Source of the DNA: Prorocentrum cordatum
Taxonomy: Eukaryota > Sar > Dinophyceae > Prorocentrales > Prorocentraceae
DNA: 64,000 bases
NCBI GenBank assembly: GCA_963575745.1
Contig: CAUYUJ010022092.1
Span: 64,729-128,728 of the forward strand
Reading direction: 5' to 3'
Position 1 is the stretch's first letter, and the number at the start of each line of letters is the position of its first letter. Shown one piece after another: positions 51,501 through 61,634 of the stretch. Below the pieces are notes generated by a model. That model had not been told where the DNA came from. It did not search any database and saw nothing but the letters and a program-made list of their open reading frames with translations. The translations under genes and the position numbers were made by a program.

Positions 51501-51620
51501 GGTGCTAAGATAACGCGGGGGTGCGTGGAAGGGCGATGCCCTGGGCTGGACCTCCCCCTAGGAAGGCCGAGGATATTCTATTTCTCTAAGGGGGGATAAA
51601 AGGAATCGCAAAGGAAAAGG
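51501..51620 (+). repeat. GCTAAGATAACGC element, copy 1
   Basis: The first of five copies of a conserved block of about 120 bp: GGTGCTAAGATAACGC, a GGTGCG word, GGGCGATGCCCTGGGCTGGA, CCCCCTAGGAAGGCC, TATTTCTCTAAGGGG and AAAAGGAATCGCAAAGGAAA. A (GGA)n tract follows directly. With copy 4 it also shares about 35 bases upstream (TTTGGAATTT, CGCG). No reading frame is conserved among the copies. Confidence 0.85.
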
Positions 51621-52067
51621 AGGGGGAGGAGGAGAAGGAGGAGGAGGAGGGGGAGGAGGAGGAGGAGGAGGACTCGGGTGATCACGACAGGGGCCACTCA
51701 GGAACACCACGACGACGACGACCGAGACGACGACGACGACGACGACCTCCCTCGAGGGCTTTTCGGGTTCCTCCGGTTGCCCTGTGTGGCCCCTCCTCGG
51801 GCTCCCGGCCGTCAGGGCGCATCTCCCCCTTGAGCTCCTCCAGAGGCCCCCTCAGGAACTCCGCGACGACGACGACGACGACGACGACGACGACGACGAC
51901 GGCGACGACGACGACGACGGGGGCCGCGGGCGCCGAGGCGACGACGGCTGCGGCGACGGCGACGACGACGACGCAGCGCTCTCGGCTCAGGGTTGCTTCA
52001 GGCTTCGACTCTCAGCCGACGGCTCCTCCCGATTTCAGGCTTGCTTCAGGGTTCTTCCACGTGCAAG

Positions 52068-52746
52068 ATGCAGGCCGAGGCAGTGGCGCTCACGGCGCCA
52101 GTGGCTCTCGCGGCGGCGGCCGTGGCGGTGCAGCCACAGGTCGACGTCGTCTTCTCCTCCTTCATTCTTCCTTATCCGTCGTCTTCTCCTCCTCCTACTT
52201 CAGACATCCTCCCTAGCTCAGGTCAGCGAGAGTCTCGTGCCGATCATCGGCCTCGCGCTCCTCGCCTACGCCATCTTCCTGCTCAGGAAGATGCTCAGCG
52301 CCGCCGAAAGCAGCTGCTACATCAGCGACAACATCAGCCGCAGGTGCAGCTTCATCGAGCGTCGGTTGATGGGCCTGGAGTTCTCTCCATGGGAGACTCA
52401 GCGGCAAATCGCCGCAGCGATCCAGGAGTGGGACATGGCTCAGGACCAGTGGTGCGCATCCCGTCAGGCCTTTCAGTATCTCAGTCGGTACTCCAGGAAT
52501 TTCCTGCGGCGCACGAGTCAGATGCCGTCGGCGGTTCAGCTCTCCATCATCGCCAACAAGGCGTTCGAGGAGTCAGGCGAGCTTGCTTCAGGCACGAAAC
52601 TCACATTGATGAGGCAGCAGCTCAGCAACAGCTGGGCCGATCAGTTCCACGGCCAGGGCCCGGCCTACGATGCTTCAGCGACACTCAGCTCCAGTTTGGC
52701 TCAGCTGACTCCGCACGAGATCGTCGACTTCTTCAGCTTTCAGTAG
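52068..52746 (+). CDS. Small membrane protein, two exons with an 82-bp intron
   Basis: Exon 1 runs 52,068-52,139 (ATG start, MQAEAVALTAPVALAAAAVA, then VQPQ). Exon 2 runs 52,222-52,746 (VSESLVPIIGLALLAYAIFL to ...IVDFFSFQ, TAG). Between them CAG|GTCGAC and CTCAG|GTCAGC bound an 82-bp, pyrimidine-rich, phase-0 intron whose two ends share CAGGTC. The spliced product is 198 residues: an Ala-rich leader that may be a signal or transit segment, a transmembrane helix at about residues 30-48, then a soluble, helix-rich tail (WDMAQDQWCASRQAFQYLS). The family is unknown. The Asp-rich frame upstream (51,784 on) is a GAC repeat, which is why I start at 52,068. The coding strand holds TCAG about every 25 bases. 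Confidence 0.55.
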
Positions 52747-52794
52747 CCGTCAGGGCTCTTGAGCCTCACGAGTGAGGAGCAGCGCTCCGCCGGG

Positions 52795-52975
52795 ACTCTC
52801 CTCCCCCTCCTCCTCCGCCTCCTCCTCCTCCTCCTCCTCCTTGTCCTACTTTTCGCCTCCCTCCTCCTCCTCCTCCTCCTCCCCCTCGTCCTCCTGATTC
52901 CTTTTCTCTCTCTCTCTCTCTCTCTCTCTCTCTCTCTCTCTCTCTCTCTCTCTCTCTCTCTCTCTCCCTCTCCCC
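52795..52975 (+). repeat. (CTC)n and (CT)n tracts
   Basis: CTC triplets to about 52,895, then about 65 bp of CT dinucleotide. The poly-Leu frame here is an artefact. Confidence 0.95.
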
Positions 52976-52994
52976 CTTCTCCGCCTTCGGTTCA

Positions 52995-53140
52995 GCGCGG
53001 CTTCAGGTTTTTTGCATGCCTGGTCAGCTGCCCGCCAGGCCTTCTGCTGCTATCGGGTCAGCGTTCAGGACCTTGAGAGGGTTAACGGTCAAACCCTCAC
53101 CGCTTGCGAACGCCTCAGGGATAAGCTGCTGCGTTGGGTA
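52995..53140 (+). CDS. Possible exon, TCAG-rich (partial)
   Basis: Between two simple-repeat tracts a frame reads LHAWSAARQAFCCYRVSVQD and then LERVNGQTLTACERLRDKLL, ending at the TTCGTA repeat. WSAARQAFCCYRVS resembles WCASRQAFQYLSRYS of the preceding gene, hinting at a duplicated exon. It contains five TCAG words. No splice sites are certain. Confidence 0.3.
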
Positions 53141-53142
53141 TT

Positions 53143-59404: not shown

Positions 59405-59531
59405 TTTTATTCGGAATGTCATTACTATTTAGATTCATTTCTTATTGCGAAAACATTCACATTCAGACTCACTCACATTCAGAGACACTCTGAGTGCACG
59501 CCTCGCTGTCTTTGGAATTTCCGCGCCACGC

Positions 59532-59650
59532 GGTGCTAAGATAACGCCTCGGTGCGGGCGGGGCGATACCCTCGGATGGACTCCCCCTTAGGACGGCCGG
59601 GGAAAATCGATTTCTGTAAAGGAGTTGCAATAGGAAGCGCATAGGAACAG
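59532..59650 (+). repeat. GCTAAGATAACGC element, copy 4
   Basis: GGTGCTAAGATAACGC, CGGTGCGG, GGCGATACCCTCGGATGGA, CTCCCCCTTAGGACGGCC, GATTTCTGTAAAGGAG and ATAGGAA words, then (GGA)n to 59,770. It lies between coding segments A and B. Confidence 0.85.
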
Positions 59651-59870
59651 GAAGAGCACGAGGAGGAGGAGGACGAGGAGGAGCAGGAGGAGGAGGAGGA
59701 TTAGGAGGAGGAGGAGGAGGAGGAGGAGGAGGAGGACTAGGAGGGCGAGGACTAGGAGGAGGAGGACCCCAAGCACCCAAGCACCCTGCTTTCCATTAGC
59801 TCCCCCCTCCCCCCCTGACCCCCTCAGCGCGCCACCTATAAGGTGTGAAGACCAGACAGCTCGTCAGGGT

Positions 59871-61030
59871 TTGGGGCAGAAGCCCGCCGTCGAGAAAGCC
59901 CTGAGTAAGTTGCAGCTCGGTCGGTCAGGCGGCATCCACTCCCATCGCAAGAAGAAACAGGGCGCCTCAGGCGGCAGCCGCGTTTCAGGCGCCAGGCTCA
60001 TTGAACGCCATGTCAGCCAGGACCCTTTAGCGAACAAGAAGCCTGGCAAACGAAGCGTCCTCAGGCCGGTGTTTGATGAGGTGTATAAGCAGTTCTTGCA
60101 GTGGCGCAGGGGCGGTCAGTACGTCGACATGTCAGACCTCTTCCTGGAGTACTGTCATCAGGCCGATAAGATGAAGACAAACTTACTGGCTCAGAGGAGC
60201 CCAGACGGTTGGTTGCCCGGTAAGCAGCAGGACCTCCTGAATGAGATTGAGAAGCGTGAGGCAGCTCACCGGCGCAGCGAAAAGATGGTTCAGTACACCT
60301 CAGAGTTTATCAAGGACACGTACGGTATCAGGCTGTTCAAACCTCAGCGACTCCTGTCCATCTCGTTGGAGGAGGAGGAGAAGCGAGCTCTGCATGGGTG
60401 GTGGAGCTTCGACGAGGCACTCAGGCTGGCCTGCGTGGACCCAGTCAGCGACCTCGATGATCACGTCGCGGACCCGCAGGGCTTCAGGGACAGCGTTGAG
60501 GACCTGGTGATCTTCATGTCGGATCAGGTGCCGATGTGGCTCAAGATCAGCCCTGCCAAGCAATTGCACGCTGAGCACGAGGTTCAGGAGGGTAAGACCA
60601 AGAAGACCAAGGACAGCAGCGTTCAGGCTTCTGCCGTCCAGCTTATTCACGACGAGGGGGAGGGCGACGACGACAACGAGGGGATGACGCAGCTCAGAGG
60701 TGAGAACTCAGCTGATCAGGGCAAATTTCGGATCACAGTCGATCTCGAGCAGAGGGTGCACGGCTGGTGCTCAGAGACAAAAGATCCTCAGTTTCAGTGG
60801 GGCACTACGTCAGTTGTTTTCACAGGCACGCATTGCAGGCTTTCAAACATTTCAGAGGATGGCCGATGGATTGAGAGTGAGAAGTTCGTGGTGGACGGCA
60901 AGGAGGTCGTCAGGATTGCAGGTGCTCCAGTGCCAGAGAACCTCGCTCAGTCCCTGAGGGCTTTAAGGCATGGGACTGGTCAGACAACGCTTTCGCACTC
61001 CCAGCGCGCGACGGGAGCAGCGCGCTTGCG
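59871..61030 (+). CDS. Pogo/Tigger-like DDE transposase, N-terminal half (exon B)
   Basis: The frame is open from before 59,871 and is coding-like to about 61,030, where a GGA tract and the TTCGTA repeat begin. About residues 60-110 (LRPVFDEVYKQFLQWRR, YVDMSDLFLEYCHQADKM) look like the DNA-binding helix-turn-helix region of pogo-type transposases. FMSDQVPMWLKI (D218) fits the first catalytic-Asp motif (N-x-D-x-T-P). GTTSVVFTGTHCRLSNISED fits a core strand region. Acceptors CAG occur at 59,865-59,867 and upstream. The rest of the catalytic core is in segment C, so B and C are probably exons of one gene or halves of one broken gene. Confidence 0.5.
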
Positions 61031-61084
61031 GGGAAGGGAACGAGGGTGGGGGGAGGAGGAGGAGGAGGACGAGGAGGAAGGAGT

Positions 61085-61512
61085 GGCAGGAGGACTCTCA
61101 TTATTAGTCGTACTCTTACTCGTCTTCGTACTCGTATTCGTACTGGTATTCGTACTCGTATTCGTATTCGTACTCGTATTAGTACTCGTGTTCGTATTCG
61201 TACTCGTATTCGTATTACTATTCGTACTCGTATTAGTACTAGTATTCGTATTCGTATTCGTATTACTATTCGTATTATTATTCGCATTCGTATTCGTATT
61301 AGTAATCGTACTCTTATTCGCACTCTTATTCGCATTCGCATCATTATTCGTACTCTTAGTCGTACTCGTATTCGTATTCGTGTTCGTATTATTATTCGTA
61401 TTATTAGTCGTACGCGTATTCGTATTCGTATTCGCATTCTCACTCGCACTTTTATATGCATTCGTATTCGTGTTATTAGTTGTACTCTTATTCGTATTCG
61501 TACTCTGATTCG
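61085..61512 (+). repeat. (TTCGTA)n-type hexamer repeat
   Basis: TATTCG and TACTCG hexamers with TATTAT variants, about 430 bp, ending right at the fifth conserved element. The Val/Phe/Leu and Arg/Ile frames are artefacts. Confidence 0.95.
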
Positions 61513-61514
61513 CG

Positions 61515-61634
61515 GGTGCTAACATAACGCGACGGTGCGGAGCGGGGCGATATCTCGGAATGGGCTCCCCCTCAGGACGGCCATCCAAACTGCATTAATC
61601 AGAGGGGATTGTAAAAGGAATCGCAAAGGAAGGG
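61515..61634 (+). repeat. GCTAAGATAACGC element, copy 5
   Basis: The most diverged copy: GGTGCTAACATAACGC, CGGTGCGG, GGCGATATCTCGGAATGG, CTCCCCCTCAGGACGGCC and AAAAGGAATCGCAAAGG. (GGA)n and (GAC)n follow to 61,745. It lies between coding segments B and C. Confidence 0.85.

Follow-up and report, generated by a model that had tools for sequence, protein, structure and literature searches.

Why should a sequence of about 120 bp occur five times, always in the same orientation, within about 10 kb of a dinoflagellate genome? The question is raised by a 64,000-nucleotide stretch of Prorocentrum cordatum DNA (assembly GCA_963575745.1, contig CAUYUJ010022092.1, positions 64,729 to 128,728; hereafter the window). 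An original prediction, made from the letters alone, had suggested that the repeated element might be a SINE (short interspersed nuclear element), an introner, a splicing signal or a ribozyme. We found that the repeats, here called modules, lie inside elements bounded by terminal inverted repeats (TIRs), have a single polarity, have a core in common with the element ends, co-vary with the TIR type and are conserved. With a probability only slightly above one half, we take the module to be a cis-acting DNA segment conserved in the interior of DDE-type transposons bounded by TIRs, where it would act as a repeated docking platform.

Copies of the module in the window and in the genome

The five copies are all on the + strand of the window, at 51501..51621, 54258..54378, 56395..56515, 59532..59652 and 61515..61635 (copies 1 to 5). 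Their positions and common orientation were confirmed by motif search and alignment, as well as by a profile search with nhmmer (1.1e-28 for copy 1). The first four begin with GGTGCTAAGATAACGC, and the fifth has one mismatch. When up to 3 mismatches were allowed, the window gave 5 motif matches against 0.36 expected, and none of 100 shuffles reached 5. About 120 bp could be aligned across all five copies, including the blocks described as almost invariant in the original prediction, and the first (GGA)3-or-longer run begins 124-150 bp past the start of each. Outside the window, the CCCCCTAGGA block is variable, with AG missing in several families, and the purine tract is less strict in diverged relatives when examined by eye. 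Also, 120 bp is the length of the alignment between copies, but the homologous unit is part of a larger whole, a TIR-bounded transposon.

The genome that was searched comprised 4,128,499,153 bases in 21,875 contigs, with the window at the end of contig C21243. The exact 16-bp core was found 584 times (304+280 on the two strands), and the reversed control was not found at all (0+0). With two mismatches, the counts were 1329+1338 for the 16-mer and 429+443 for the control. The recurrence of the element throughout the genome was thus established. We fetched 20 stretches picked by motif, then six more and then one of 2.5 kb, which are given L-numbers here. A profile built from 20 copies detected 51 modules. 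The window and 25 of the 26 stretches searched contain them, and this profile search found no module in L029, the upstream neighbor of the window.

The modules lie inside TIR-bounded elements

In an alignment of four loci (L022, L023, L026 and L027), homology starts with TAACC and stops with GGTTA. A search for these terminal sequences, allowing up to 4 edits, showed that TIR pairs flank the modules in many loci. Eleven elements with both ends were recovered, ranging from 1164 to 7010 bp with 1-3 modules each. By eye, the modules run from the 5'-type end to the 3'-type end in the 20 loci compared. In the window, a 5' TIR, TAACCTCAGGAAGGCATTAAGAACCCCCCC, is present at 48551..48580 on the + strand, up to 4 edits from the TIRs of the 11 two-ended relatives. 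A 5' subterminal palindromic block with a degenerate inverted core motif, seen by eye, follows at 48595..48643. We infer that a single element, at least 15.4 kb long and with its 3' end beyond the end of the contig, contains all five copies. The TIRs bound the homologous unit, as in a DDE-type TIR transposon, with the window containing the 5' end only. In L015, a 5' TIR likewise precedes paralogous genes.

The flanks of the 11 two-ended elements were also compared. A uniform TA was not found in them. Inverted repeats just outside the TIRs scored 12.9 compared to 9.5 for cross-pairs, a difference from which no firm conclusion is drawn.

A search with a TIR pattern gave 77 places, and its control gave none. 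Fifteen TIR ends fall in the range up to contig C6446, for which the list of exact cores is complete. Up to a distance of 10 kb, an exact core was present on the inner side of 11 of these 15 ends and on the outer side of none. Six of the ends are in loci from which the pattern was derived (C126, C550, C903, C947, C1646 and C4761), which makes the figure of 11/15 partly circular; without these loci, the core was inside at 5/9 ends and outside at 0/9. Among the first 100 of the 584 exact cores, neighbors within 10 kb were on the same strand in all 27 pairs (23 clusters), although the pairs are not wholly independent, since paralogous copies are among them.

The core is common to modules and ends and is conserved

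The sequence common to the module and the subterminal ends is GGTGCYARGATAACGC. In 317 kb, 15 matches to this core were outside modules, and 12 of them face outward at a distance of 43-87 bp from a TIR end. In L010, L018, L022, L024 and L025, the match is 78-87 bp from the 5' end. The type of module also follows the type of TIR across 19 loci (Mantel r 0.39, p 0.0003, with the 5' repeat used for some loci and the 3' repeat for others). Modules within a locus were more alike (0.86, 38 pairs) than modules from different loci (0.73, 1237 pairs).

In nine comparisons between lineages, identity was 0.74-0.84 for the module core and 0.38-0.67 for the fourfold-degenerate sites of exon D, one of the element's exons. 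The comparison between the near-identical loci L031 and L032 is not among the nine, in which these two loci duplicate each other. Both modules and both ends were the better-conserved parts of four short elements. This conservation reflects selection on the sequence.

Genes of the element and a predicted transposase

After the 5' TIR, the exons are in the order A, F, B, C, D, E, all on the + strand. Gene A (52210..52745) encodes at least 178 amino acids, is rich in TCAG and has Pfam matches below the cut-off only. Gene F (57210..57557) encodes 115 amino acids and has a paralogue in L030. Exon B of the transposase gene is at 58376..59297, with paralogues in L015 and L030-L033. Exon C (59843..60967) is a homologue of the initial part of the DDE-like domain in protein P0016, and exon D (61803..63093) contains the remainder of this domain and the C-terminal part. 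Exon E, with an approximate start, is at 63280..63810 and has paralogues in L015, L030 and L032. Paralogues of exons B to D were found in L015 and L030-L033, and 46 pieces of the genome match exon D. By eye, further coding-like sequence is present 3' of exon E in L035 (C4980:206500-208999), which is part of the L030 element. Since coding-like sequence continues there, the L030 element is longer than the initial 10 kb.

No Pfam match above the cut-off was obtained with the proteins of the element. The predicted fold of a homologue resembles Mos1 and other DDE transposases, and thus the element is predicted to encode an RNase H-like DDE transposase. A Foldseek search against a viral library gave nothing at E 0.001. 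We take these elements to represent a previously unclassified superfamily of TIR-bounded, DDE-type DNA transposons.

By eye, exon C of the window is out of frame relative to L030 soon after the B-C junction. On this reading, the transposase copy in the window may not be intact. Two spliced-leader-like relics of the dinoflagellate type are at 57135..57154 (+), upstream of gene F, and at 58334..58353 (+), just before the ATG of exon B. If these relics derive from spliced leaders, genes F and B may have gone through a trans-spliced mRNA stage.

Three EukProt proteins, P0001, P0040 and P0059, carry the name Pyramimonas sp. Over 62% of the query, P0001 and exon C have 99% identity, so that either contamination or transfer would be involved. 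The EukProt match suggests that the transposase gene is transcribed. The idea of homologues in prokaryote genomes was set aside, as P0046, named as a protein of an archaeal metagenome-assembled genome, led to 8 pattern matches and to no confirmed relative in the genome contigs. Elsewhere in the window, at 29033-40172, there are large retrotransposon-like frames that appear copia-like by eye.

The exons of these elements are also marked by a tetranucleotide. TCAG was the most enriched tetramer in nine exon segments of the transposon, with 232 occurrences compared to 105.5 after synonymous shuffling (z 15.3). It is found on the sense strand in every reading phase, about once per 38 nt (52210-63810 of the window; L015, L030-L033). 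Among 60 frames listed, those of these elements had 17.6-41.7 TCAG per kb and the others had 0-13.7. The window's copia-like frames had no TCAG excess. Short elements are mostly without TCAG enrichment, with L020 as the exception.

Copies 4 and 5 very probably lie in introner-like introns

By comparison with paralogues, from which the splice sites were inferred, exons B and C are separated by a GT..AG intron at 59298..59842 (+) that contains copy 4, and exons C and D by a GC..AG intron at 60968..61802 (+) that contains copy 5. Both introns have inverted repeats at their ends, of about 55 bp in the B-C intron. The B-C intron is absent in L030-L033, and one frame of 758 codons spans exons B and C in L030. 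The suggestion that copies 4 and 5 are intronic is therefore very probably correct.

The presence of the module in these introns is variable. The B-C intron has a module in the window, and L015 has an intron at the same site without one. In the C-D intron, the window and L015 have a module, which L030 and L031 lack. The D-E interval contains a module in L015, L030 and L032 and not in the window; L031 and L033 have a module after D, with E beyond the stretch. By eye, the intron sequence around the modules could not be aligned.

Inverted repeats between the first and last 80 bases were found in all five introns tested (B-C and C-D of the window, B-C of L015, C-D of L030 and C-D of L031), with scores of 30-56 that were matched by none of 1000 mononucleotide shuffles. 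To judge from these sequences, the transposase-gene introns in which copies 4 and 5 very probably lie are introner-like. The idea of an introner was thus partly right. The host introns are introner-like, both in their end inverted repeats and in their presence or absence between paralogues, but the module itself is not the intron: it lies in the interior, rather than ending at the putative splice sites, and one and the same intron has it in some copies and lacks it in others.

What the module might do

Several explanations for the module were considered. A protein-binding DNA module that has its core in common with the subterminal ends would be the most economical. A DNA-binding protein encoded by the transposon, either the transposase or an accessory protein, would dock on the repeated modules, and the same protein would also bind the core near the ends. 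Docking would help pair distant ends and mark the polarity of the element. The large gene-bearing elements carry several co-oriented modules, and many short derivatives have modules as well. Modules would be found in introns because the non-coding space of the transposon lies between exons. It is rather doubtful, and here only tentatively suggested, that in giant DDE transposons this docking is combined with an exon TCAG code that marks the element's own transcripts or DNA as self.

A number of observations weigh against the docking platform. The modules are far from the ends, and their number and intron position vary, unlike classical subterminal arrays. The exact core was missing at 4 of the 15 TIR ends (3 elements), which is 4 of the 9 independent ends, although only exact cores were counted and diverged modules are possible. 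Three of the 15 core matches outside modules were not at a recognized end, and the whole module was only 0.66-0.75 identical between lineages in the nine comparisons. Loci L009-L028 and L030-L034 were sampled for having the motif. A gene-bearing element with both ends was not seen, as the window contig ends and L030 runs on. There was no clear target-site duplication in the 11 elements, where direct flank repeats scored 12.2 compared to 9.2 for cross-pairs and had no constant length. Lastly, Foldseek is weak alone, with a best E of 8e-3, and the folded homologue is 38-40% identical to the window exons.

Another possible explanation is that the module acts in expression, as a promoter, trans-splicing or splicing-enhancing segment that is always in sense and either upstream of genes or intronic. 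The modules are on the gene strand throughout the window, L015 and L030-L033, copies 1-3 are ahead of genes A and F with copies 4-5 being intronic, and the purine tract after all five copies is GGA-rich like purine-rich splicing enhancers. We consider this unlikely, though it deserves to be kept in mind, since the module is retained in the TIR elements (all 11 two-ended-element loci) in which exons A-F had no tblastn match, and since the B-C, C-D and D-E intervals are found with or without it in paralogues. The AG that resembles a 3' splice site is gone in several families. For this reason, a 3' splice signal, with CCCCCTAG followed by GA as the candidate site, was rejected. The module could instead be a passive relic, in which case ancient duplicates of the end region of the transposon would be hitchhiking without function. 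The core common to the ends, the greater likeness within loci and the independent ends that lack an exact core would all fit, and some modules are local duplications that include the flanks, in a BLAST comparison that contains many simple-repeat matches. A relic is nevertheless quite improbable, as fourfold sites have diverged far more than module cores, the surrounding intron cannot be aligned by eye and the polarity is uniform (27/27).

A SINE or introner that inserts independently, in transposon introns and elsewhere, would account for the high copy number, for the presence or absence at the same intron between paralogues and for the end inverted repeats of the host introns. It is very unlikely, given that exact cores near the TIRs are on the inside and never immediately outside (11 vs 0 of 15; 5 vs 0 of 9) and that module type follows TIR type in a single orientation. 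No head derived from an RNA polymerase III gene was found; ARAGORN found no tRNA in the window, Rfam gave nothing there at the gathering threshold, and none of 10 weak Rfam matches in 51300-62200 was to tRNA or 5S. A tRNA-derived SINE was therefore dismissed, and a suspected likeness of the core to boxes A/C of 5S rRNA had no Rfam support. The least probable explanation, which we hardly credit, is a structured RNA or self-cleaving ribozyme. The G- and C-rich blocks could in principle pair, but RNAalifold of the 51 modules gave -3.3 kcal/mol, within the range of column shuffles (mean -0.4, best -4.0), with no covarying secondary structure. None of the window copies, taken singly, folds better than its shuffles (z 0.43 to 2.17), their folds differ, and there was no Rfam match. 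A viral origin was also rejected. The exact core is present in 40 IMG/VR stretches, and the profile covers the first 17 positions only (best 15 of 39 matches); because no more of the module matches, these were taken as chance.

Comparison with known systems

The predicted fold of the homologue is like that of Tc1/mariner (Mos1) and other DDE/D transposases. Unlike Tc1/mariner, this family has no Pfam match and no uniform TA duplication in the 11 elements, and the present element, which would be at least 15 kb, has several genes and introns. The TnpA sites of Suppressor-mutator (En/Spm) and the direct repeats of Sleeping Beauty are described as internal repeats bound by an element protein and thought to help bring the ends together (PMC9921582). 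The modules are likewise internal to TIRs and, by analogy, may be bound by a protein, but in contrast to those repeats they are 120 bp long, kilobases inside, of one polarity and intronic.

Dinoflagellate introners are introns that have an inverted repeat at either end and are reported to be enriched in P. cordatum (PMC10666404, PMC7789003). The five introns tested here are similar in their end repeats, but the module does not form the intron boundary and is missing from some copies of the same intron, and the elements that carry it are bounded by TAACC..GGTTA TIRs and have a candidate for an autonomous partner. Like SINEs, the module is short, dispersed and present in high copy, but it is embedded in TIR DNA transposons and no similarity to RNA polymerase III genes was found.

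DNA transposons with TIRs and internal sites are already known as a kind, while novelty appears to lie in this family, in its scattered modules of one polarity and in the TCAG signal. The accessible portions of PMC10666404, PMC11453091, PMC7789003 and PMC9860276 contained no description of the module or family, and those of the literature searched held no close parallel to the internal modules and TCAG signal. The transposase-like family and the short elements have related TIRs and the module in common, so that partners can be matched by sequence. The module provides a concrete candidate binding site, and the transposase gene is itself interrupted by introner-like introns.

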